DNA from: Comamonadaceae bacterium
GTDB taxonomy: Bacteria > Pseudomonadota > Gammaproteobacteria > Burkholderiales > Burkholderiaceae_C
Assembly: GCA_004144865.1 (NCBI GenBank)
Contig: SEAY01000015.1
Location: 1 to 44,251 of the forward strand
Direction of reading: 5' to 3'
DNA: 44,251 nt
A program made the position numbers and the translations under genes. The notes beneath the pieces are model-generated. The model saw only the letters and a program-made list of their open reading frames with translations, had not been told where the DNA came from and made no database searches. Shown piece after piece: positions 1,005-39,034 of the stretch (position 1 is the first letter of the stretch; the number at the start of each line of letters is the position of its first letter).

Positions 1005-2252
1005 TTACGGGCAGTTCGGCACGTCGCGCGAGCCGATCTTGAACTGCGCCTTGGGCACGCCCAGCGTCTGGGTGACGTTGTCCACCTTGGCCAGCACCTT
1101 GTTGTACAGGTTGCCCTGCGCGTCCTTCACCACTTCGGTCACGAAGGTGCTGCCGATCGCCTGGCGGTTCTCGTCCAGCCGCACGTCGCCGGTGGGCGTC
1201 TTCAGGACCATCTTCGACAGGGTGTCGCGGTACTTGGCGTGGTTGTTGGACAGGTCGCCCTTCACCGCGTCGAGACCGTCGAGCGCCGCCTTGGTGTTCA
1301 CGTAGTACACGTACGCGAACAGCGACGGGCTGGGGAAGCCGCCCGCGGAGGCGGGGTAGTTCTGCTTGTAGGCGGCGACGAACTTCTTCCAGTCGGCGCC
1401 GTCGTAGGCGTCGGCCAGCGGCCCGGCGGACAGCGTGCCCACCAGCGAGTCGCGCTTCTTGCCGCGGTAGTTCAGCACGTCCTGGCTGACGGTGATGGAG
1501 CCGCCCAGGATCGGCTTGTCGCCGCCGGCGTTCTCGTACTGGTTCAGGAAGTTCACCGCGTCGGCGCCGCCCAGCACCAGCAGCAGCGCGTCGACGTCCT
1601 TCGGGATGCGCGCGATCACCGAGGAATAGTCCTTGCCGCCCAGCGGCACCCAGGCTTTCACCGGCACCTTGCCGCCGCCGCCGCAGAACTCGGTCATGAA
1701 GCCCTGCACCTGCGAGTACGGGAAGGAATAGTCCTCGGCCACGACCATCACCTTCTTGTAGCCCTTGGCCAGCGCCGCCTTGCCCAGGCCCACCATCCAC
1801 TGGCCGCCTTCGGTGTTGAAGCGGAAGAAGTTGGCGCTGGGGTTCTCCAGCGTGGTGGCCTGCGCGCCCGAGCCGCCGTTGATGAAGGTCACCTGCGGCT
1901 GCGTCTTGGAGTAGTCCTTGACGGCGATGCCCTCGCTGCCCGAGAGCGGGCCGACCAGGATGTCGATCTTGTCCTGCTCCACCAGCTTGCGGGCGGAGTT
2001 GACGGCGACGTCGGGCTTGGCGTCCGACGAGGCCTTGATCATCTCGATCTTGCGTCCGGCCACCACGCCGCCGCGCTCCTTGATGGCGAGCTCGGCCCCG
2101 CGCATCCCGTCCGCGCCGCCGGCGGCGAACGGGCCTTCCAGCGTGGCCAGTACGCCCAGCTTGATGGGAGCGCCCTGCGCCCAGGCGCCACCCGCGAAGG
2201 TCGCGGCGAATGCGGCCGCCGCCAGGCCGCTCAGCAGGAATCTCTTGTGCAC
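1005..2252 (-). CDS. Periplasmic substrate-binding protein LivK-like (type I ABC binding protein)
   Basis: Periplasmic receptor of the Liv-type importer, 415 residues. A clear signal peptide is present (KRFLLSGLAAAAFAATFAGG then AWA-QGA cleavage region). The mature part begins IKLGVLATLEGPFAAGG and contains GAELAIKERGG and KLVEQDKIDILVGPLSGS, typical of the Peripla_BP_6 amide/branched-chain/aromatic acid family. The GTG start at 2252 is preceded by AAGGAGA; no ATG lies near. The protein sits between livM and livG in the operon, an order common in Burkholderiales catabolic Liv clusters. The linked amidohydrolases, alpha/beta hydrolase and FAH-family enzyme suggest that the ligand is an amide or aromatic/acyl compound rather than leucine, but this is inference. 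Confidence 0.9.
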   Translation of the reverse strand: MHKRFLLSGLAAAAFAATFAGGAWAQGAPIKLGVLATLEGPFAAGGADGMRGAELAIKERGGVVAGRKIEMIKASSDAKPDVAVNSARKLVEQDKIDILVGPLSGSEGIAVKDYSKTQPQVTFINGGSGAQATTLENPSANFFRFNTEGGQWMVGLGKAALAKGYKKVMVVAEDYSFPYSQVQGFMTEFCGGGGKVPVKAWVPLGGKDYSSVIARIPKDVDALLLVLGGADAVNFLNQYENAGGDKPILGGSITVSQDVLNYRGKKRDSLVGTLSAGPLADAYDGADWKKFVAAYKQNYPASAGGFPSPSLFAYVYYVNTKAALDGLDAVKGDLSNNHAKYRDTLSKMVLKTPTGDVRLDENRQAIGSTFVTEVVKDAQGNLYNKVLAKVDNVTQTLGVPKAQFKIGSRDVPNCP

Positions 2253-3557: not shown

Positions 3558-4547
3558 TCATGCCGCCCTCCCCAACAAGCCGCGCGGCCGGAACGCCAGC
3601 ACCAGCACCAGGATCACGAAGGTGAACACCACGCTGTAGGTCGGTGCATACGCGAGGCCATACGTCTCCGCGAGTCCCAGGATCACCGCGCCCAGCGCCG
3701 CGCCCACCACGCTGCCCATGCCGCCCACGATCACGACGATCAGCGACGCCAGCAACAAGCGCGTGTCCTCGCCCGGCACCATCGAGAGTTCCACCGCGCC
3801 GATCACGCCGCCCAGGCCGGCCAGGCCGGCGCCCAGCGCGAAGGTGATGGCGAACACCAGGTTCACGTTGACGCCGGCGGCCGCGAGCATCGCGCGGTCG
3901 TCCACCCCGGCGCGGATCATCATGCCGACGCGCGTGCGATTGAGCAGCAGCCACAGCCCGACGCCGATGACGATGCCCATCCCCAGCAGGCTCAGGCGGT
4001 AGGCCGAGTAGGCGTTGATGATGGGGATGCCGCGGATCGGGCCCTGCAGCCACTCCGGCGCTTCCATCTGGTGCACCTGCGCGGTGAAGATCCAGATCAG
4101 CAAGTCCGCCACGACCACCGACAGGCCGATGGTCACCATGGTCTGGCGCAGGTCCTGGTTTTGCATGTGGCGCAGGATCAGCACCTGCATCAGGAGCCCG
4201 GCAAGGGCAGCGACGGCAAAGCCCGCACCGATCGCGAGCAACCAGTACCCGGTCTTCTCCGCCACGATGAAGCCGACGTAGCCGCCCAGCAGGTAGAGCG
4301 AGCCGTGCGCCAGGTTGACGTTGCGCATCAGGCCGAACACCAGGGTGAAGCCGCTGGCAACGATGAAGTAGAGCGAGGCCAGCGTCAGGCCGTTGAGCAG
4401 CGTGACGAGGAACAGGCGGGCGTTGTCGAACAGGCCCCAGATCGCGAATACCGCGATCGGTACGCCGATGAGGATCCAGGGCAGGATGCGGCGCCAGGCG
4501 ACACCCTGGCGCGGCAGGGTGGGTTGAACGGGGAAGACGGCGCTCAT
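3558..4547 (-). CDS. livH: Branched-chain-type ABC transporter permease LivH
   Basis: Membrane permease partner of LivM, 329 residues with many hydrophobic segments. Diagnostic stretches are LLNGLTLASLYFIVASGFTLVFGLMRNVNLAHGSLYLLGGY (seen in two parts around residues 53-92), the EAA-type NRTRVGMMIRAGVDDRAMLAAAGVNV loop and the C-terminal FRPRGLLGR that marks LivH/LivM proteins. An extra N-terminal hydrophobic segment (ILPWILIGVPIAVFAIWGLF) precedes the core. Transcription comes from the amidohydrolase genes to the right; the 94-bp gap before it is almost filled by a palindromic repeat pair, which could uncouple transporter from enzyme expression. Confidence 0.93.
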   Translation of the reverse strand: MSAVFPVQPTLPRQGVAWRRILPWILIGVPIAVFAIWGLFDNARLFLVTLLNGLTLASLYFIVASGFTLVFGLMRNVNLAHGSLYLLGGYVGFIVAEKTGYWLLAIGAGFAVAALAGLLMQVLILRHMQNQDLRQTMVTIGLSVVVADLLIWIFTAQVHQMEAPEWLQGPIRGIPIINAYSAYRLSLLGMGIVIGVGLWLLLNRTRVGMMIRAGVDDRAMLAAAGVNVNLVFAITFALGAGLAGLGGVIGAVELSMVPGEDTRLLLASLIVVIVGGMGSVVGAALGAVILGLAETYGLAYAPTYSVVFTFVILVLVLAFRPRGLLGRAA

Positions 4548-4564: not shown

Positions 4565-4626
4565 CGTCATTCCCGCGAAGGCGGGAATCCAGGGCGCCCT
4601 GGGTCCCCGCCTCCGCGGGGATGACG
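4565..4626. repeat. Palindromic repeat pair, family 1 (ATTCCC-N8-GGGAAT type)
   Basis: Two 30-bp half-units in inverted orientation separated by 2 bp. Each unit reads CGTCAT-Y-CCCGCG...GGCGGGRAYCCAGGG. The core ATTCCCGCGAAGGCGGGAAT matches the architecture of the neisserial dRS3 element (ATTCCC-N8-GGGAAT), also common in Comamonadaceae. This copy fills the gap between the amidohydrolase at 4642 and livH and can fold into a long hairpin in mRNA. Confidence 0.88.
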
Positions 4627-4641
4627 GAGTGAATGGTGCGC

Positions 4642-5928
4642 TCATGCCGCCCACCTCATTTCGCGCTCGGCTTCCATCTCCGGCGACTTCGCGAACTTTC
4701 CGTCCTTCATCACCGCCAGGATCCGCTTGGGATCGCGCAGGATGGAGATATTCGCCAGCGGGTCGCCGTCCACCAGCAGCAGGTCGGCGAGATAGCCTTC
4801 CTTCACCTGCCCCAGCTCGTGGCCGCGCATCATGATCTCGCCGCCGTACACCGTGGCGCAGCGCACCGCCTCGGCCGGCGTGAAGCCCAGGTACTTGACG
4901 AAGAACTCCAGGTCGCGCGCGTTCTGGCAGTGCGGCGTGAACGCGAAGCCGTAGTCGCCGCCGAACAGGATGCGGATGCCGCGCTTGTGCATCGCCCGCA
5001 GCGATTCCAGCGCCGCCTCCCACTCGACCTGGTAGCCCAGCTCCACCGCCTTCTGGTGGGTGATGCCGTAGGCCTCGGCCTCGTGCAGCATCGCGTAGAG
5101 GATCGCGATGCCGGGGGCGACGAACACCCGCGACTTGGCCGCCTCCAGCATGTCCAGCGTTTCCTCGTCGCTGAAGCTGGCGTGGTAGATCACGTCGATG
5201 CCGTGCCGCAGCGCCTGCTTCACCGAAGCCGCCGAGCGCGCGTGCGCCGAGCCGCGCTTGCCGCGCACCCGCACTTCGTCCATCGCGGCGGCCACTTCGG
5301 CATCGCTCATCCAGGTGGTCTCGGCCGGCGAGTCGGGGGTGAAGTTGTCGCCCGAGAGATTCAGCTTGATCGAGTCCACGCCGTACTTCAGGAACATGCG
5401 CACGGCCTTGCGCATCTCGTCCGCCGAGTTCACGTTGACGCCGAAACTGAACTCCGGGAACGGCAGGTGCGGCAGCGTCTCGTCGCCCAGGCCGCCCGGC
5501 ACCGTGATCTCCTGGCTGGCGGCCAGGTAACGCGGGCCGGGAATCTGCCCGCTGTTGATCGCGTTGCGGATCACCACGTCCAGCCGCGGCTTGGCGCAGG
5601 CCGCCCCCACGCAGGAGGTGAAGCCCGCTTCCAGGTAGCGCTTGGCCACCTTGGCGCACCACAGCACGTGCTCCTCCAGCGGCATGGTCTGGATGGCGGC
5701 GAGCGTGGCCGCATCGTTCCAGGAGAAGTGCGTGTGCGCCTCGCACATCCCCGGCATCAGCGTGGCGCCGCCGGCATCGATCACCGTGGCCGCGCCGCCG
5801 CTGACCGAGCCGCCCGAGCGACTGATGCGCTTGATGCGGTTGCCCTCCACCAGCACGCTGCCGATGTAGGGCGCCATGTTGACCGGGCCTTCGAGGACAC
5901 GGACGTTGGTGAACAGCGTGCTTTCCAT
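4642..5928 (-). CDS. Metal-dependent amidohydrolase (imidazolonepropionase/Xaa-Pro dipeptidase-like), copy 1
   Basis: Predicted cytosolic binuclear-metal hydrolase of the amidohydrolase superfamily, 428 residues. The metal-site pattern is complete: HxH in EAHTHFSW (H65, H67), the probable carboxylated lysine in SIKLNLSGD, histidines in AHARS and VIYHASF, and the catalytic Asp in GGDYGFA. The C-terminal LVDGDPLANISIL and VMKDGK strands form the small beta domain typical of the family. It is a close paralogue of the next gene (5941-7242) along its whole length, so the pair arose by tandem duplication. Substrate is unknown: this subfamily cleaves cyclic or peptide-like amide bonds. Operon position upstream of a Liv importer suggests hydrolysis of an imported amide. 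Confidence 0.88.
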   Translation of the reverse strand: MESTLFTNVRVLEGPVNMAPYIGSVLVEGNRIKRISRSGGSVSGGAATVIDAGGATLMPGMCEAHTHFSWNDAATLAAIQTMPLEEHVLWCAKVAKRYLEAGFTSCVGAACAKPRLDVVIRNAINSGQIPGPRYLAASQEITVPGGLGDETLPHLPFPEFSFGVNVNSADEMRKAVRMFLKYGVDSIKLNLSGDNFTPDSPAETTWMSDAEVAAAMDEVRVRGKRGSAHARSAASVKQALRHGIDVIYHASFSDEETLDMLEAAKSRVFVAPGIAILYAMLHEAEAYGITHQKAVELGYQVEWEAALESLRAMHKRGIRILFGGDYGFAFTPHCQNARDLEFFVKYLGFTPAEAVRCATVYGGEIMMRGHELGQVKEGYLADLLLVDGDPLANISILRDPKRILAVMKDGKFAKSPEMEAEREMRWAA

Positions 5929-5940
5929 CGTCTTGCTCCT

Positions 5941-7242
5941 TCAGGCGGCCCAGCGGGTCATCTCGGTGCGGGCGCCGCTGCGCAGCGGGGGCGCGCGGTG
6001 GAAGGCGCCGTCCTTCATCACCGCCAGGATGCGGCGCTTGTCCTGCAGCACCGCGATGTCTTCCAGCGGGTCGCCGTCCACCAGCAGGATGTCGGCCAGG
6101 AAGCCCTCCTGGATCTGCCCGAGCTGGTTCTTGCCCATGCGCATCATCGGCCCGCCCCACGCGGTGGCCGACAGCAGCGCCTCCGTGGTGGACATGCCCA
6201 GGTACTTGACGAAGTACTCCAGGTCCTTGGCGTTGGTGCCGTGGGGCGTCCAGGCGAAGCCGTAGTCGCCACCGGGCAGGATGCGCACGTCGCGCCTGCG
6301 CAGCGCCTTCATCGATTCGATGGCGCACTCCAGCTCGCGGAAGTAGCCCATGCCGCGCGCCACCTGCGGCGTGATGCCGTATTCGCTGGCGTGGTGGCAG
6401 GTGTTGATCAGCCAGGCCAGGCCCGGCGCGATGAAGTGCCGCTTCTTGTTCTCCTCCAGCAGGTCGAGCGCCTCCTCGTCGGCGAAGCTGGCGTGGTAGA
6501 TCACCTCGATGCCCAGGTTCACGCACTGCTTGATCGACTTGGTGGAGCGGGCGTGCGCGGCCACGCGCTTGCCCCAGGACTTGGCCTCCTCCACGCAGGT
6601 GGCAACCTCCGTTTCGGTGAACTGCGAGTTCTCGCTGGAAAAGCCCGTGATGGATTCGCCGGACAGGTTGATCTTGAGCGTGTCGACGCCGTACTTGGCG
6701 AACATGCGCACGCAGCGGCGCATCTCCTCCGCGCCGCTCACCACCGCGCCGAAGGCGAACTCCGGCTGCGGCAGGTGCGGCTGGGTGGTGTCGCCCAGGC
6801 CGCCGGGCACGGTGATCTCCTGGCTGGCCGCCAGGTAGCGCGGGCCGATGATGGTGCCGTCGTTGATGGCGTTGCGGATCACCACGTCCAGCCGCGGCTT
6901 GGCGGCGGCCGCGCCCACGCAGGAGGTCCAGCCCATGTCGAGGTAGGTCTTGGCCACCTGCGCGCACCACAGGATGTGCTCCTCGGGCGGCATGCGCTGG
7001 ATGGAATCGAGGCTGGGCTGGTCGTTCCAGGAGAAGTGCGTGTGCGCCTCCACCATGCCGGGCATGAGGAAGGCGCCGGCCGCATCGACCATGGTCACGC
7101 CGCCGACCTGCGGCGCGCGCGCGCCCATGCCGCTGCGGGTGACGCGGGTGATGCGGTTGCCCTGCACCAGCACCTCGCCGCGGAACGGCGTGTCGCCGGA
7201 GCCGTCGAAGATGCGCGCGTTGGTGAACAGCACGTCGGCCAT
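5941..7242 (-). CDS. Metal-dependent amidohydrolase, tandem paralogue copy 2
   Basis: 433 residues, same family and order of motifs as its neighbour: EAHTHFSWND (H67, H69), TLKINLSGE with the lysine ligand, AHARS, VIYHASFADEE, and GGDYGFAWTPHG with the catalytic Asp; LVDGDPLEDIAVLQDK and VMKDGAF close the beta domain. No signal peptide. The gap to copy 1 is 12 nt and to the upstream hydrolase gene 16 nt, so all are probably co-transcribed. Differences between copies cluster in the segments around residues 95-110 and 220-250, where substrate loops lie in related enzymes, so the two may act on different stereoisomers or on successive intermediates (inference). Confidence 0.88.
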   Translation of the reverse strand: MADVLFTNARIFDGSGDTPFRGEVLVQGNRITRVTRSGMGARAPQVGGVTMVDAAGAFLMPGMVEAHTHFSWNDQPSLDSIQRMPPEEHILWCAQVAKTYLDMGWTSCVGAAAAKPRLDVVIRNAINDGTIIGPRYLAASQEITVPGGLGDTTQPHLPQPEFAFGAVVSGAEEMRRCVRMFAKYGVDTLKINLSGESITGFSSENSQFTETEVATCVEEAKSWGKRVAAHARSTKSIKQCVNLGIEVIYHASFADEEALDLLEENKKRHFIAPGLAWLINTCHHASEYGITPQVARGMGYFRELECAIESMKALRRRDVRILPGGDYGFAWTPHGTNAKDLEYFVKYLGMSTTEALLSATAWGGPMMRMGKNQLGQIQEGFLADILLVDGDPLEDIAVLQDKRRILAVMKDGAFHRAPPLRSGARTEMTRWAA

Positions 7243-11683: not shown

Positions 11684-13096
11684 CTACTTGCCGATGCAGA
11701 ACCGGCTGAAGATCACGCCCAGCAGGTCGTCGGCGCTGAACTCGCCGGTGATCTCGGACAGGGCGTTCTGCGCCAGGCGCAGCTCCTCGGCCAGCAGGTC
11801 CAGCGACTGCGCCTGCAGCGCGATCAGCGCCGCCGCTTCCATGAGGTGCGCATCGACGCGGCGCAAGGCATGCAGGTGGCGCTCGCGCGCGATGAACACG
11901 CCTTCGGGGGCGGCCTGCCAGCCGGCGATCTCGAGGAGCTTCTTGCGCAGGGCATCGAGTCCGCTGCCTGTCTTGGCCGACAACGTCATTCCCGCGGAGG
12001 CGGGAATCCAGGGCTTCCGCTCCCGGTCTTCAACGCCCTGGGTCCCCGCCTGCGCGGGAACGACGACGTCTGCCTTGTTCCACACGTCGATGACGGGGAC
12101 GTCGGCAGGCAGGCGCTGCGCGATCGCCGCGTCCGCCGCGCGATAGTCGTCGGCCGAGGCCCGCGTCAGGTCGTGCAGGAACACCACCGCGTCCGCCTTC
12201 TCGATCTGCCCCCACGCGCGCTCGATGCCGATCTGCTCCACGGTGTCCGCGCCTTCGCGCAGGCCCGCGGTGTCCACCACGTGCAGGGGCACGCCCTCGA
12301 TCTGGATGGTCTGGCGCACCACGTCGCGCGTGGTGCCGGGAATCGGCGTGACGATGGCGAGCTCCGCGCCGGCCAGCGCGTTGAGCAGCGAACTCTTGCC
12401 CGCATTCGGCTGGCCCGCGATCACCACGTTGATGCCCTCGCGCAGCAGCGCACCCTGGTGCGCGCGCTGCATCACGCGCGCCAGGTTGGCCTGCAGGCGA
12501 TCGAGCTGCCCCTGCGCGTCGGCCTTCTGCAGGAAGTCGATCTCCTCCTCGGGAAAGTCCAGCGTCGCCTCCACCAGCATGCGCAGGTGCACCAGCGCGT
12601 CCTTGAGCGCAAGGATCTCGCGCGAGAACTCGCCGGCCAGCGAACGCGTGGCGCTGCGCGCGGCGGCTTCGGTGCTGGCATCGATCAGGTCGGCGATGGC
12701 CTCGGCCTGCGCGAGGTCCAGCTTGCCGTTGAGGAAGGCGCGCTGCGTGAACTCGCCGGGCTCCGCCACGCGCAGCGCCATCGCCGCACCGGCCTCGAGG
12801 CAGCGCGCCAGCAGCAGCTGCAGCACCACCGGCCCGCCGTGCGCCTGCAGCTCCAGCACGTCCTCGCCGGTGTAGGAGTGCGGGGCTGGGAAGTGGATCG
12901 CCAGGCCCTGGTCGATCGCGCTGCCGTCGCTGGCGCGAAAGGGCCCGTACACCGCGCTGCGCGGCGGCAGGTCGCGCGCGCACACCGCTTCGATGATGGG
13001 CCGCACATCCTTCGCCGAGACCCGCACGATGCCGACGGCGCCGCGGCCGGGGGCGGTGGCGATGGCGGCGATGGGCTGGTCGAGGCGGGCGAGCAT
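11684..13096 (-). CDS. mnmE: tRNA modification GTPase MnmE with in-frame repeat insertion
   Basis: With MnmG it makes the 5-carboxymethylaminomethyl group on wobble uridine of tRNAs. 470 residues from ATG 13096 (AGGA about 6 nt upstream). The N-terminal folate-binding domain begins [28 protein letters not shown]; the G domain has G1 GQPNAGKSS (about 228-236, with the potassium-binding Asn), DTAGLRE (G3), NKAD (G4) and SAKTG (G5); the C-terminus ends FCIGK with the catalytic Cys. Oddity: residues about 344-371 between G4 and G5 are encoded by a family 1 palindromic repeat pair (11984-12065) reading [10 protein letters not shown]...[10 protein letters not shown]. All catalytic motifs are intact, so the protein is presumably functional. 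MnmE is usually about 450-465 residues, which fits an insertion partly replacing a variable loop. Confidence 0.96.
11984..12065. repeat. Palindromic repeat pair, family 1, inside mnmE
   Basis: Half-unit at 11984-12013 (CGTCATTCCCGCGG...CCAGGG) and an inverted half-unit at 12036-12065 (CCCTGGGTCCCCGCC...ACGACG), with a 22-bp spacer. It keeps the mnmE reading frame. Same unit as at 4565, 13108, 15211, 15503 and 17470. Confidence 0.9.
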
Positions 13097-13107
13097 GTTC
13101 CTATTCT

Positions 13108-13137
13108 CGTCATTCCCGCGCAGGCGGGAATCCAGGG
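13108..13137. repeat. Solo half-unit, family 1, immediately upstream of mnmE
   Basis: A single 30-bp unit (CGTCATTCCCGCGCAGGCGG...CCAGGG) ends 11 bp from the mnmE start codon. It lies between that start and the yidC terminator, so it occupies most of the space available for an mnmE promoter. Confidence 0.85.
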
Positions 13138-13143
13138 CGTCGC

Positions 13144-15204: not shown

Positions 15205-15689
15205 GGGGAGCCCCGGGTCCCCGCCTGCGCGGGGATGACGGATGGCGCGCGTTCGAACAACTGCAGCAGCTCGCCGCGCACGGCGGCCTTCAGCGCCTCG
15301 GACCAGGCGCTGGGGAACTGCTTGCGCGCGAATTCCGACCGCAGCCGCACCACGTGGGCGGCGGCGGGCAGGCGCGCGGCGAAGGCTTCGCTCACGTTGT
15401 AGACCTGGCGCTTGATGCCGTTGCGGGTGACCGCGCGTTTCGCCCAGCGCTTGGGCACCACCACGCCCATCCACGGCTCGTCCTGGACAGCAAACAGGAG
15501 TCTGTCATTCCCGCGGAGGCGGGAATCCAGGGCATCCGGAAGATCCTGGGTCCCCGCCTGCGCGGGGACGACGGCTTGGGCGGACGGCGCGGGGAACGCT
15601 GCGCGGTGCAGCACGAAGTGCGCGGTCCGGGAGACGGTGCCTCCTGCCATCGCTGCCTCGAACTGTGCCCGGGTCTTGAGCCGCTGCAC
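15201..15689 (-). CDS. rnpA: Ribonuclease P protein component with two repeat-derived segments
   Basis: Protein subunit of RNase P (tRNA 5' maturation). From GTG 15689 (VQRLKTRAQFEAAMAGG) it has 162 residues against about 120 usual. The core is present: HFVLHR, MGVVVPKRWAKRAVTRN and the RNA-binding helix RNGIKRQVYNVSEAF. Oddities: residues about 39-62 ([10 protein letters not shown]...LDSRLRGND) come from a palindromic repeat pair at 15503-15574, placed between the N-terminal strand and LLFAVQDEPW; and the last 13 residues (SVIPAQAGTRGSP) plus the approach to the stop come from a solo unit at 15211-15240. The start is less certain because no clear ribosome site is seen, but no ATG fits. The gene sits between rpmH and yidD as expected. 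Confidence 0.9.
   Translation of the reverse strand: MQRLKTRAQFEAAMAGGTVSRTAHFVLHRAAFPAPSAQAVVPAQAGTQDLPDALDSRLRGNDRLLFAVQDEPWMGVVVPKRWAKRAVTRNGIKRQVYNVSEAFAARLPAAAHVVRLRSEFARKQFPSAWSEALKAAVRGELLQLFERAPSVIPAQAGTRGSP
15211..15240. repeat. Solo half-unit, family 1, encoding the RnpA C-terminus
   Basis: A 30-bp unit (CCCGGGTCCCCGCCTGCGCG...GATGACG) is read on the minus strand as VIPAQAGTRG just before the rnpA stop, and lies 7 bp before the yidD start codon. Confidence 0.85.
15503..15574. repeat. Palindromic repeat pair, family 1, inside rnpA
   Basis: Half-unit 15503-15532 (TGTCATTCCCGCGGAGGCGG...CAGGG) and an inverted half-unit 15545-15574 (CCTGGGTCCCCGCCTGCGCG...ACGACGG), spacer 12 bp. It is read in frame by rnpA. 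Confidence 0.9.
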
Positions 15690-15733
15690 GGCGGGCAGGC
15701 GCAGGAAAGCGCTTGCTTGGCGACGCGGGGCGC

Positions 15734-15868
15734 TTAGGCGGCCAGGCGCTTGCGGCCCTTGGCGCGGCGCGCGTTGATGACGGCGCGGCCACCGCGGGTC
15801 TTCATGCGGACCAGGAAGCCGTGGGTACGAGCGCGGCGCACTTTGGAGGGTTGGTAGGTGCGTTTCAT
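15734..15868 (-). CDS. rpmH: 50S ribosomal protein L34
   Basis: 44-residue ribosomal protein with the invariant sequence [18 protein letters not shown], then [19 protein letters not shown]. First gene of the rpmH-rnpA-yidD-yidC operon, 44 nt upstream of the rnpA start and divergent from dnaA. A promoter is visible at 15892-15920. Confidence 0.98.
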
Positions 15869-17469: not shown

Positions 17470-17570
17470 CGTCACCCCCGCGAAGGCGGGGGCCCAGGGC
17501 TCCCCAGTGCGCGCCGCGGGCGCGCCACACCACCGGAAAGCCCTGGATTCCCGCCTCCGCGGGAATGACG
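17470..17570. repeat. Palindromic repeat pair, family 1, between dnaA and dnaN
   Basis: Half-unit 17470-17499 (CGTCACCCCCGCGAAGGCGG...) and an inverted half-unit 17541-17570 (CCCTGGATTCCCGCCTCCGC...), spacer 41 bp. It follows the dnaA stop directly and fills half of the dnaA-dnaN gap; a transcript hairpin could shift the dnaA:dnaN ratio. No terminator-type T-tract follows. Confidence 0.88.
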
Positions 17571-34644: not shown

Positions 34645-36546
34645 TCAAAGCCCCATCGCCTGCCCCTCCGCCGGCGAAGCAGCCGGCGTGTCCGGCCGCC
34701 CGCGGGGCAGCAGGAACATGACCTTCAGCCGCGTTCCCGGCGCGGTTTCGGTCCAGACGGTGCCGCCGTGTGCCTCGATGATCGATCGGCAGATGGACAG
34801 GCCCAGTCCCGCTCCGCGCCTGTCCTCGCGGCCGGCTTGCCAGAACGGCTGGAACAGGCGCTCCAGGTCCTCCACCGGCACCGGGGCGCCGCTGTTGGCG
34901 ATGCTGAACACCACGCCTCCTGGCGCGGGCTCGGCCCGCAGCACCACGCGCCCACCGGGCTCGGTGAACTTGATGGCGTTGTCCATCAGGTTGCCGAACA
35001 CGCGCATGACGCGATTGGCATCCACGTGGATCAATGGCAGGTTGTTCTCGTGCTGCAGCTCCAGTTGCAAGCCCGCTTCGTTGACCCGCGGCCCCGCCTG
35101 CTCCGCGGCCATGGAAAGCAGGTCCGCCGGCTGCACGGGTTCGAGCTTCAACATCGTGCCGCCGGACCGAACGACGGAGATGGCCAGCAGGTCGTCCACC
35201 AGCCCGGCCATGCGACGCGTCGCCTCCACGATGGCCGTGGCCGCCGCGGCGCACTCCTGCCCGGCGGCGCCGGCGGCAGCCTTCTTCGCCAGCACGGCCG
35301 CGCGCGTCGCGATGTTGCCCAGCGGACTTCGCAGGTCGTGCGCCACCACGGCCAGGATGTGCTCGCGGTCCCGCACGGCCCCGCGCAGCTGCTCCTGCGT
35401 GCGCACCAATGCCGTGACGTCCTGGTTGACCGCCACCGCACCCAGGATCTCCCCGCCCTTGGCGCGGATGGGGGCCGCCCAGTTCAGGACCGTCTTGAAC
35501 GTGCCGTCGAAGCACTGGATGCGGATCAACTCGCTGCGCGACGTCTCGCCGCCTCGCACCGCGCGGGCGAGGGCCCAGTCGTCCGCCTCGAGCGGCAGGC
35601 CGGTATCGGCCCACCACGCCTTGTACGCGCCGAACTCCTCCGGCCCCACGTGCCGCAAGCCCTGCCAGATGTTGCGGCCCGCCGCATTGCCGTGGGTGAT
35701 GTGGCCCTGTCGGTCGCTGACGTAGAGGCCCACCGGCAGCAGCTCGAACGCCGTGCGGAACAGCGCCTCGTTCTGCTGCAGCTTCTGCTGCGCTTCATAT
35801 AGCTCGGTGATGTCCTGGTTGACGCAGATGGCGCCGGCGAGCTGGCCGTCCGCATCGTGCAGCGGCGCCGCGGAGTTGATGATGGTCTTGAAGGTGCCGT
35901 CGAAGCACTGGATGCGCACCAGCTCGCCGACGGACGTCTCGCCCTTGGACAGCGCCCTCGCCAGCGCCCACTCGTCGCCGGCGATGGCCTCGCCGCTGTC
36001 GGCCCACCAGCCCTTGTACACGCCGTAGCTCTGCGGCCCCACATGGCGGACGCCGCCCCAGATCCTGCGACCGGCTTCGTTGCCGCGCACGATCGTGCCC
36101 TCGCGATCCGTCATCCACACGCCCACGGGCAGCAGCTCGAAGATGGCGGCGAGGGTGCGTTCGCCGGCGTGCGCCTGCTGCTCCAGCCGCTTGCGCTCGC
36201 CGATGTCGCGCACGAAGGCCTGCCATTGGCCGTTGGGCAGGATGTTGGCGTTGATCTCCACCGGCACCCAGTGGCCGTCCTTGTGGCGCAGCAGCCATTC
36301 CTCCACATGCGCGCGGCCCTCCAGCATCGCGCGCCTGGCGGCATCCAGCCGGATCGCGTCACCTTCGGGGATGAGGTCGAAGATCGTCTTGCCCAGGATT
36401 TCATCCGGCTCCATGCCGAGCATGCGGCAGCCCGACTGGTTGACGTAGATGTAGCGGCCGTGCAAGTCCGCGACGAACACGCCGTCGGGCGCGGCTTCGA
36501 GGAGGGCATGGGTGTCGGGCTCGCGCAGCGGGGGACGGTTTGGCAT
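34645..36546 (-). CDS. Soluble multi-PAS sensor histidine kinase, paralogue A
   Basis: 633 residues from ATG 36546 (MPNRPPLREPDTHALLEAAP). Three PAS domains: one beginning ALLEAAPDGVFVADLHGRYIYVNQSG, and two near-duplicate ones (FELLPVGVWMTDREG and FELLPVGLYVSDRQG) with a shared VRIQCFDGTFKT strand. The kinase core has H box VAHDLRSPLGN, N box NLMDNAIKFTEPGG, a variant G1 ANSGAPVP, F box LFQPFWQ and G2 GAGLGLSICRSII. No membrane segment: cytosolic sensing. Divergent from a paralogue at 36812 with the same domain plan; no receiver or response regulator gene is nearby. An upstream start at 36621 is possible. Confidence 0.9.
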   Translation of the reverse strand: MPNRPPLREPDTHALLEAAPDGVFVADLHGRYIYVNQSGCRMLGMEPDEILGKTIFDLIPEGDAIRLDAARRAMLEGRAHVEEWLLRHKDGHWVPVEINANILPNGQWQAFVRDIGERKRLEQQAHAGERTLAAIFELLPVGVWMTDREGTIVRGNEAGRRIWGGVRHVGPQSYGVYKGWWADSGEAIAGDEWALARALSKGETSVGELVRIQCFDGTFKTIINSAAPLHDADGQLAGAICVNQDITELYEAQQKLQQNEALFRTAFELLPVGLYVSDRQGHITHGNAAGRNIWQGLRHVGPEEFGAYKAWWADTGLPLEADDWALARAVRGGETSRSELIRIQCFDGTFKTVLNWAAPIRAKGGEILGAVAVNQDVTALVRTQEQLRGAVRDREHILAVVAHDLRSPLGNIATRAAVLAKKAAAGAAGQECAAAATAIVEATRRMAGLVDDLLAISVVRSGGTMLKLEPVQPADLLSMAAEQAGPRVNEAGLQLELQHENNLPLIHVDANRVMRVFGNLMDNAIKFTEPGGRVVLRAEPAPGGVVFSIANSGAPVPVEDLERLFQPFWQAGREDRRGAGLGLSICRSIIEAHGGTVWTETAPGTRLKVMFLLPRGRPDTPAASPAEGQAMGL

Positions 36547-36680
36547 CGGGTCGGGCGTGAAGGATGGTGCGGCACCGCCAATATTCCTGCCTGGACAGCC
36601 GATCCGTCTGCGCCACATCAAGCGGGGCGCAGCGATTTGCTGCTGGGCTTGCGCCTTTCCCTCGCTTAGGGCCGCGACCT

Positions 36681-36694: not shown

Positions 36695-36811
36695 GCGTTC
36701 GCGGTGAGCTCCTGGGGTATCACGGAGGGCAATGCGTCGCGGCTTGATCCGCAGCAACCGGGCGCCACCTGCCGCGTGAAAGATTGCGCCTTGCACTGCC
36801 CCGAACTCGCC

Positions 36812-39034
36812 ATGGACCAAACGCACGACTGTGAAGCGACCCACGCCCTGCCAGCCGAGCAAGCCCGCAGCCTGGTGGAATTCGCGCCTGAAGCCATCTT
36901 CGTTGCCGACAGTTCCGGCCATTGCACCTATGCCAATGCCGCTGCTGCACGGATGCTGGAGCGTGGCAAGGAAGAGATCGTCGGCCTGCCCATGACGGAC
37001 CTGGTGCGTCCCGGCGATTCGAAGCTGCTGCGCAAGGACGGAAGCTGGCTCGACGTGGAGATCACGGCAACGAGCGCCGCCGGTGGCTACTCGCATTTCT
37101 TCGTGCGCGCCCCGGGGCGCCGCGCCGCGCGCGACCTCGAGCGGGAAGCATTGCTCCAGCAGGTCGAAGCCGAGCGCGCCTGGCTCGACGCGGTGATCTA
37201 TCGCCTGCCCGTAGGCGTCGTGCTGTTCGGGGACGGCGGACGCACGACATTCAACCAGGCCGCCCATGAGTTGCTGGGCGGGCCGCTCTCGCCGGATGCA
37301 GGCGTGGAACAGTACGCGGACCGCATCTTCTATCCGGACGGGCGGAAGGTCCCGCTGGAGGATTTCCCTTCCATGCGTGCGCTGCGCCGCGGCGAGAGCC
37401 TGGCGGCCACCGAGTTCATCATCCGTCGCGAGGACGGGTCGCAGAGCCACGTCATCACCAGTTCCGGGCCGATCCGTGACGGCGAGGGCCGCGTCCTCGG
37501 CGCGGTGGGCGTGTTCCAGGACGTCACGGAGCGCATGCGGCTGCAGCGTGCCGTGCGTGACAACGAGCGGCTGATGGAAGCGGTGTTCGAGCTCATGCCC
37601 ACCGGCGTGCGCGTCGCGGATGCGCAGGGGACGGTGATCCGTACCAACCGCGCGGCCCGCGAGCTGTGGCGAGGCAACCCGGACGGCCCCACCAAGGGCG
37701 AGATGAAGGCTTGGTGGGTGCGCAACGGCGAGGCCCTGGAGCACCAGGACTGGCCGGCCCGGCGCGCGGCGCGCGGCGAGACGGTGGCCAACGAACTGGT
37801 GCGCATGCAATGCTTCGACGGCAGCTTTCGCACGGTCATGAAGTGCGCGGCGCCCCTGCGCGACGACGCCGGCCACATCACCGGGGCCGTCGTCGTGGAC
37901 GAGGACGTCACCGCGCTGTACGAGGCCAAGGAGAAGCTGGAGGCGGGCGAGCGGCTGTTCCGCACCGTGTTCGAGCTGTTGCCGGTCGGCGTGTACATCA
38001 CGGACCGCGACGGCAAGGTGGTCCTCGGCAACCGCGAGGGCGAGCGGATCTGGGGCGGCCTGCGCTACGTCGGCCCGGACGAGTTTCAAGAGTACAAGGG
38101 ATGGTGGATCGACACCGGGCAGCCGATCGCCTCCGACGAGTGGGGCGTCGCGCGCGCGGTCCGGCGCGGCGAGACGGCCTTGAGCGAACTGATCCGCATC
38201 CAGGCGTTCGACGGCTCGATGAAGGTGGTGATGAACTGGGCGGCGCCGCTGCGGTCGGAGAGCGGCGAGATCACCGGCGCGGTGGCCCTGAACCAGGACG
38301 TCACGCCCCTGTACCACACGCAGGAGCAGCTGCGCGGCGCCGTGCGCGAACGCGAGCACATCCTTTCTTCCGTGGCGCACGACCTGCGCAATCCCCTGAA
38401 CGCCCTCAGGCTGCACGCCGCCGCATGCAGCCGCAGGATGCTGGCACTGCCCGGCGGCGAAGAGCTCCGGCGGCGCGTCGAGTCGCTGGGGGAGATCGCC
38501 CGCGACATGTCCGGCCTGGTGGACGACCTCCTGGCGATCTCGGTCGGACATGCCGGACCCTCGATGCTGAAGCTCACCCCCATCGAATCGGAGGCGGTGG
38601 TGCGAAAGGCCGCGGAACTGGCGCAGCCGTCGTTCGCGGCTGCGGGCGTCGATCTCGTGGTGCAGGCCGAGCCGGGCATGCCGATCATGATGGTGGACGT
38701 CGAGCGCATCCAGCGCGTGTTCGCGAACTTGCTGGACAACGCATGCAAGTTCACCGCGCCCGGCGGCCGCGTGGTGCTGGAAGTCGAGTCGCAGCCCGGC
38801 GCCGTCCTGTTCGGCATGGCGAACACCGGTCCCGCGCTGTCGCCCGAGCAGATGGAGCGCATGTTCCAGCCTTTCTGGCAGGCCACGCACGACGACCGTC
38901 GTGGCGCGGGCCTGGGCATGTCGATCTGCCGCTCGATCATCGAGGCGCACGGCGGCAGCATCTGGGCCGAAGCGGCTCCCGGCATGCAGGTGCACGTCCG
39001 CTTCCTGCTGCCCACCAGCATCCCGCAGGCCTAG
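36812..39034 (+). CDS. Soluble multi-PAS sensor histidine kinase, paralogue B
   Basis: 740 residues from ATG 36812 (MDQTHDCEATHALPAEQ); a GTG at 36704 would add 36 residues that look non-conserved. PAS domains: LVEFAPEAIFVADSSGHCTYANA, LDAVIYRLPVGVVLFGDGGRTTFN, FELMPTGVRVADAQG, and FELLPVGVYITDRDGKVVLGN. Kinase core: H box VAHDLRNPLNAL, N box NLLDNACKFTAPGG, variant G1 ANTGPALS, F box MFQPFWQ and G2 GAGLGMSICRSII. The last PAS plus core are strikingly like paralogue A (WWxDTG, DxWxxARAVRxGET, TQEQLRGAVR-REHIL). Its TAG stop shares the palindrome CTAG (39031-39034) with the stop of the convergent amidotransferase gene. Confidence 0.9.
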   Translation: MDQTHDCEATHALPAEQARSLVEFAPEAIFVADSSGHCTYANAAAARMLERGKEEIVGLPMTDLVRPGDSKLLRKDGSWLDVEITATSAAGGYSHFFVRAPGRRAARDLEREALLQQVEAERAWLDAVIYRLPVGVVLFGDGGRTTFNQAAHELLGGPLSPDAGVEQYADRIFYPDGRKVPLEDFPSMRALRRGESLAATEFIIRREDGSQSHVITSSGPIRDGEGRVLGAVGVFQDVTERMRLQRAVRDNERLMEAVFELMPTGVRVADAQGTVIRTNRAARELWRGNPDGPTKGEMKAWWVRNGEALEHQDWPARRAARGETVANELVRMQCFDGSFRTVMKCAAPLRDDAGHITGAVVVDEDVTALYEAKEKLEAGERLFRTVFELLPVGVYITDRDGKVVLGNREGERIWGGLRYVGPDEFQEYKGWWIDTGQPIASDEWGVARAVRRGETALSELIRIQAFDGSMKVVMNWAAPLRSESGEITGAVALNQDVTPLYHTQEQLRGAVREREHILSSVAHDLRNPLNALRLHAAACSRRMLALPGGEELRRRVESLGEIARDMSGLVDDLLAISVGHAGPSMLKLTPIESEAVVRKAAELAQPSFAAAGVDLVVQAEPGMPIMMVDVERIQRVFANLLDNACKFTAPGGRVVLEVESQPGAVLFGMANTGPALSPEQMERMFQPFWQATHDDRRGAGLGMSICRSIIEAHGGSIWAEAAPGMQVHVRFLLPTSIPQA

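Follow-up and report, generated by a model that had tools for sequence, protein, structure and literature searches.

Palindromic repeats that are translated as part of proteins have been known for two decades, mainly as scattered cases; papers by Ogata and Claverie are among the references of PMC3733652. In the excerpts of Di Nocera et al. 2013 (PMC3733652) to which all citations of that paper below refer, CGTC-1 REPs are defined by a CGTC tag, an 8-bp stem starting with AT, a 4-base loop and a CCA tail, and they occur mostly as head-to-head dimers; according to the same excerpts, CGTC REPs have no dedicated transposase. Intragenic REPs are described there from several species, those of both superfamilies being found inside core genes, e.g. 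uvrA and a tRNA pseudouridine synthase gene, and the RPE sequences of Rickettsia conorii are reported to end in CGTC, with the intragenic ones equated with RPE-4 and RPE-6.

The window, i.e. the whole 44,251-nt stretch of contig SEAY01000015.1 (GenBank assembly GCA_004144865.1) analysed here, comes from a Comamonadaceae bacterium with a 4.35-Mb assembly of 243 contigs that is 93% complete. The named entries nearest to it are Ramlibacter proteins and the best named locus is from Caenimonas sedimenti, so that the genome appears to belong to Ramlibacter in the broad sense. A search against Rfam gave no match in the window. Two duplications were also noticed in it, namely a divergent pair of genes, sensor-kinase-like by eye, at 34645-36621 and 36704-39034, which form an inverted duplication with stretches 70-76% alike in DNA, and two tandem paralogues, amidohydrolase-like by eye, at 4642-5928 and 5941-7242, with stretches about 73-79% alike.

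The mnmE gene of the window (Table 1) possesses the motifs that we take to be G1, G2 (TTRD), G3 (DTAG), G4 (NKAD) and G5 (SAKT) of the MnmE GTPase, as well as the C-terminal FCIGK. An 82-bp inverted pair of REP units is read in frame as 27 residues between NKAD-V and LSAKTG, which gives a loop of 29 residues. A sequence-only reading of this DNA had placed a translated palindromic pair between G4 and G5 of mnmE with the GTPase motifs intact, and both observations are borne out, the gene being present in a single copy. The same reading held that the pair adds about 27 residues; that many are indeed repeat-coded, but most of the native loop seems to have been replaced, since only V and L are left beside the repeat and repeat-free loops of congeners have a median of 14 residues, so the net gain would be about 15. 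Folded as RNA, the insert reaches -72.3 kcal/mol (z = -7.5), and none of 200 shuffles was as stable.

Table 1 Genes and REP features of the window, and the recG repeat of the same genome. Positions are those of the window unless another stretch is named.
Feature	Position	Strand	Remarks
mnmE coding region	11687..13096	-	470 aa, without internal stop; Pfam TrmE_N, MMR_HSR1, MnmE_helical
Head-to-head pair of CGTC-tagged REP units, part of the mnmE G4-G5 loop (residues 344-372)	11984..12065	-	
REP unit 1 of the mnmE pair	11984..12014	+	CGTC tag, 8-bp stem, 4-base loop, CCA tail
20-base spacer between the mnmE REP units	12015..12034	.	codes for about VEDRERK
REP unit 2 of the mnmE pair	12035..12065	-	inverted relative to unit 1
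Single REP unit shortly upstream of the start codon of mnmE	13108..13138	+	
REP pair between open frames 3558-4547 and 4642-5928	4565..4628	.	
REP unit read as the C-terminal residues of the rnpA frame	15213..15240	-	SVIPAQAGTRGSP
rnpA segment (RNase P protein)	15246..15737	-	Pfam match spans the translated REP pair
REP pair translated in rnpA	15503..15573	-	VVPAQAGTQ...LDSRLRGND
REP pair between two open frames	17470..17570	.	
REP pair translated in recG between DEQH and SAT	L151 (G000:C32, the window's genome) 1775-1854		

Unit 1 reads CGTC-ATTCCCGC-GGAG-GCGGGAAT-CCAG and the inverted second unit ends with GGGAACGACG. Each part agrees with the CGTC-1 definition: CGTC stands at 11984 and its complement ends at 12065, the 8-bp stem starts with AT, the loop has four bases, and the CCAG following the stem matches the CCA tail. 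With up to 3 mismatches the unit has 205 matches (98 + 107) in the window's genome and none in the reversed control, in keeping with the expectation of the sequence-only reading that the repeat would lie at many other genomic sites. The CGTC elements surveyed number 101, on 80 stretches covering 93 of the 100 sites with 0 mismatches among the matches listed; the other seven sites are inside the window (4) or on C223, C225 and C227 (3), and the listed matches are 100 of the 205. The survey is biased to well-conserved copies because it was drawn from zero-mismatch sites. Head-to-head pairs make up 73 of the 101 elements, and the base before GTC is C in 145 of their 146 outer ends. The mnmE insert is a CGTC-1-type REP pair, a dispersed palindrome of the window's genome. 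The unit is tagged CGTC and not GTAG, which places it outside the GTAG REPs and their RAYTs; the genome has one Y1_Tnp match, and 58 of the 60 genomes of the genus have a match to this family. The open frames flanking the last REP pair of the window in Table 1 are presumably dnaA and dnaN.

The G4-G5 loop was read in 55 of 60 genomes of the genus, the window's included, which leaves out G075, where the frame is broken before the loop, and G053, G019, G010 and G068, which have no mnmE at E<=1e-60. For each loop, scores for three repeat families were computed and compared with those of 400 dinucleotide shuffles apiece. A repeat family was matched by 21 of the 55 loops: nine carry CGTC units (three pairs, four singles and two decayed), four carry GTAG-type units, which begin GTAGG, and eight carry the G-rich family CCCTCCCCC...GGGGGAGGGTTGGGGTGGGGG (four pairs, four single or decayed). 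The score was reached by none of the 400 shuffles for 20 of these loops and by one for G058, which may be chance since 55 loops were tested with three families; G064, with three, was counted as repeat-free. The observation that the single G-rich copy of G043 is located in mnmE was discarded, as it held for one pattern only and a looser pattern gave 15 matches.

The 34 repeat-free loops have 11-22 residues with a median of 14, and those with repeat pairs have 28-102, whereas loops with single or decayed units have 11-18 residues (29 in G022), near native size yet repeat-coded. These lengths fit insertion, trimming and re-insertion, with the order of insertion first and trimming later being the one that we infer. 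By eye, the same repeat is used in different frames and orientations, which argues against selection for one peptide. In the longest loop, of 102 residues (G042, L141), a CGTC pair is accompanied by incomplete copies of the head of the REP, and the segment APAGLTLSA is duplicated. Outside the G4-G5 loop, the MnmE alignment shows only a 10-residue insertion near residue 107 in the N-terminal part, common to G005, G056, G045, G072, G071 and G067, and a 3-residue one.

That the insert is an assembly artefact, or that mnmE is a decaying pseudogene, is hardly credible. The 243 contigs, the 93% completeness and the broken frame of G075 could be taken to speak for it, but a distinct, partial NCBI entry (P0097, 92% identical) has the same kind of mnmE insert with a nearly identical spacer peptide and another (P0002, 94% identical) has a decayed version, so an assembly artefact is unlikely, and repeats are found in the same loop of entries named for described species. 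Each genome has one mnmE match at E<=1e-60, none of the 56 matches contains an internal stop, and across 36 aligned sequences the residues of the motifs vary little or not at all. Judging from its sequence, the repeat-bearing MnmE is presumably made and active.

The relationships of the loops were assessed on a loop-masked mnmE tree of 61 rows, 6 of them outgroup rows, which as a single-gene tree is weak, with 21 of its 58 inner branches starred and 23 open. The window falls in a clade of 18 members (support 100/99), 16 of which have clear repeat loops, G058 and G064 being marginal; adjoining it are G008 with a repeat and G016 without one, and in a second clade (G003, G020, G043) the loop is occupied by the G-rich family. 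The expectation of the sequence-only reading, a gap in most relatives, held only for the more distant congeners, which have a short loop, while 16 to 18 of the 18 members of the window's clade carry repeats, of three families. Without the two marginal rows the tree requires at least 9 changes of loop state, and with them 11; repeat presence alone requires at least five if the marginal rows are set to native. The CGTC carriers were rejected as one clade (AU p 0.001), as were the G-rich carriers (9e-5); the GTAG-type carriers were not (p 0.092).

Repeat abundance alone predicts insertion poorly. The three genomes with the most GTAG-type matches (155, 142 and 54) all have this unit in mnmE, and so has G066 with 13, but it is not in mnmE of G042 (30) and G057 (18). 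The mnmE loops of the CGTC-rich genomes G015 (391), G057 (160), G009 (150) and G062 (130) have no CGTC unit, yet G001, with 3 CGTC matches only, has a decayed one, and the G-rich unit is not in mnmE of G049 (45 matches), G042 (28), G012 and G007 (25 each). By a rough, pattern-based estimate, a 60-base target would receive 0.04 of the counted copies under uniform scatter, or 0.4 with only a tenth of the genome accessible to insertion. Since copy number is a poor predictor and the 18-member clade is nearly full, something must be added by ancestry with replacement, by targeting or by selection.

The first of these would mean one ancestral insertion in the clade that was later displaced by other families, through insertion into the repeat or recombination, so that the site was inherited and not repeatedly chosen. 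We regard this as unlikely, even though the clade is almost full whatever the repeat load of its members, and repeats do enter repeats, as can be seen from the recG gene of G042, where a GTAG-type pair lies within the spacer of a CGTC pair; the title of PMC1525189, the part of that paper drawn on here, also presents REPs as targets of insertion sequences. No mixture of two families at a score >=13 was found in any of the 21 repeat-bearing mnmE loops, and the GTAG-type inserts appear, by eye, to keep native residues on both sides. Repeats are moreover present in the separate clade of G003, G020 and G043 and in G008, and the changes in presence alone listed above are more than one insertion would account for.

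The reading that we consider likely is that the G4-G5 loop of MnmE is a recurrent landing pad, which repeats of three families enter, where pairs lengthen the loop and deletions trim it before re-entry, while the enzyme keeps working. A CGTC-1-type REP pair would land between G4 and G5 and be translated, repeats of all three families would enter the same loop repeatedly, and a pair would first lengthen it; deletions would then trim the loop toward about 14 residues, leaving repeat-coded ones, after which new repeats could re-enter. The loop would need a minimum length and little particular sequence, so that the enzyme keeps working, and the insertions appear to be nearly neutral.

Among the 101 surveyed CGTC elements of the window's genome, four are in frame and flanked on either side by coding signal, namely those of mnmE and recG and two on L220. 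The two latter pairs (G000:C216, 1802-1862 and 6633-6732) are each placed between two different domains of a long open frame, labelled by eye as SRPBCC-like and quinone-oxidoreductase-like, and as ABC ATPase and Tm-1-like, respectively, as if the translated repeat were a fusion linker. In recG, a repeat score >=18 was found in 10 of the 29 DEQH-SAT loops read, scored without shuffle control; the 30 loci used had the highest scores among the 58 genomes in which recG was matched, a choice that may favour carriers. The repeat families of mnmE and recG differ in G008, G023 and G057 and are the same in the window's genome and G063. The nested recG loop of G042 (L273) has 89 residues, all in frame, and its identity with a named loop suggests that G042 is Ramlibacter alkalitolerans. 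Among the 120 nearest RecG proteins, the loop has at least 16 residues in 41 and 11-14 in 79, and simple peptide motifs flag 27 as repeats.

The REP pair in rnpA did not pass the codon test at the 5' flank; a Pfam match nevertheless spans the insert. A match to rnpA was found in 52 of 60 genomes, from which 30 loci were fetched and 27 loops read, and only the window's loop scored above 14 (without shuffle control), so rnpA was rejected as a landing pad. A broader proposal, that a few Ramlibacter loops (MnmE G4-G5 and RecG DEQH-SAT) truly serve as landing pads, with different repeats being steered to them or favoured there, and are rewritten mainly by repeat turnover including nesting rather than by point mutation, is offered tentatively and is on balance doubtful.

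With regard to function, the sequence-only reading had suggested that the insert could alter GTPase or dimerisation kinetics, for which the loops give no support, as they persist at lengths of 11 to 102 residues and with differing repeat peptides, and lie probably away from the G-domain dimer interface. In the excerpts of PMC2749940, labels at D366 of E. coli MnmE are separated by 47 A in the crystal of the closed dimer, and DEER gives 48 and 58 A for the closed state; the distances for switch II labels are 18 and 28 A. By alignment, the E. coli loop corresponds to residues 339-357, with the D366 label 9 residues past it. Since the D366 distances are far from those of switch II, an effect of the insert on dimerisation looks unlikely. 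Contacts with MnmG are described, in the excerpts of PMC12397908, in the helical and N-terminal domains of MnmE. The G4-G5 loop is probably a permissive surface segment.

These positions also bear on the proposal that the repeat is retained for some benefit, an mRNA hairpin or a longer loop tuning MnmE synthesis or the GTPase cycle, which we hold to be very improbable. The hairpin of the window is very stable and occupancy in one clade is near-total, as such a role would have it, but three kinds of peptide persist in several frames and over the whole range of lengths, and single or decayed units persist with a loop RNA of -14 to -39 kcal/mol, inside the range of repeat-free loops (-9 to -50). 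The loop, as said, seems remote from the dimer interface, and the described MnmG contacts lie in other domains.

Beyond the genomes surveyed, 8000 MnmE proteins were scored, and the 120 listed as closest to that of the window include 93 with repeat-like loop peptides (43 CGTC, 28 GTAG-type and 22 G-rich) and 27 that are unclear. Entries with repeat loops are named R. monticola, R. pallidus, R. montanisoli, R. ginsenosidimutans and Caenimonas sedimenti. In other genera, 72 loops were read from 80 loci, and a score >=14 was reached only in Caenimonas sedimenti, whose loop is identical to that of G050, and in Caballeronia (L096), whose CGTC score of 14.0, obtained without shuffle control, is as low as that of the marginal G058. 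A candidate fourth repeat family in mnmE of Comamonas (L084) was dropped, with only 2 unit matches in that genome.

As a natural case of mobile DNA that has become protein, the locus is unusually clear. With related species bearing repeat-free, paired, trimmed and, in recG, nested loops, it amounts to a replicated natural experiment and makes two questions testable, namely what determines the insertion sites of REP families for which no transposase is known, and how repeat DNA becomes ordinary protein. Should the landing pads be true ones, the loops of core enzymes would be continually rewritten by successive mobile repeats.

Compared with the described systems, the repeat of the window resembles the CGTC-1 REPs of PMC3733652 in its tag, stem, loop and tail, in its head-to-head dimers and in its hundreds of copies. 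The one case of insertion at the same site given in the excerpts of that paper is recB in two Xanthomonas species, whereas here one loop is used genus-wide by three families; mnmE, trmE, recG and Ramlibacter are not named in its main text. A search of open-licence papers on Ramlibacter MnmE, on palindromic or repetitive elements of Ramlibacter, on intragenic REPs, on RPEs and on MnmE in general yielded no report of genus-wide reuse of a loop by several families. In the GTAG-tagged REPs with RAYT transposases (REPtrons) the likeness is by tag only and concerns the GTAG-type loop family, the window's own repeat being tagged CGTC. The sequence-only reading had likened the insert to the Rickettsia palindromic elements, and the likeness stands in that the unit fits CGTC-1 and the R. 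conorii RPEs are assigned to CGTC repeats in the excerpts of PMC3733652. Like the RPEs, the repeats described here are in-frame palindromes that colonise housekeeping proteins, in this case those of mnmE, recG and rnpA; unlike them, they are found in relatives of Ramlibacter and Caenimonas and not in Rickettsia, reuse the same loop and are trimmed to native length, the likeness being one of description and not of RPE sequence. The kind of element, a translated REP, is a known one, and it is the extent, a genus-wide landing pad for several families, that is unusual.
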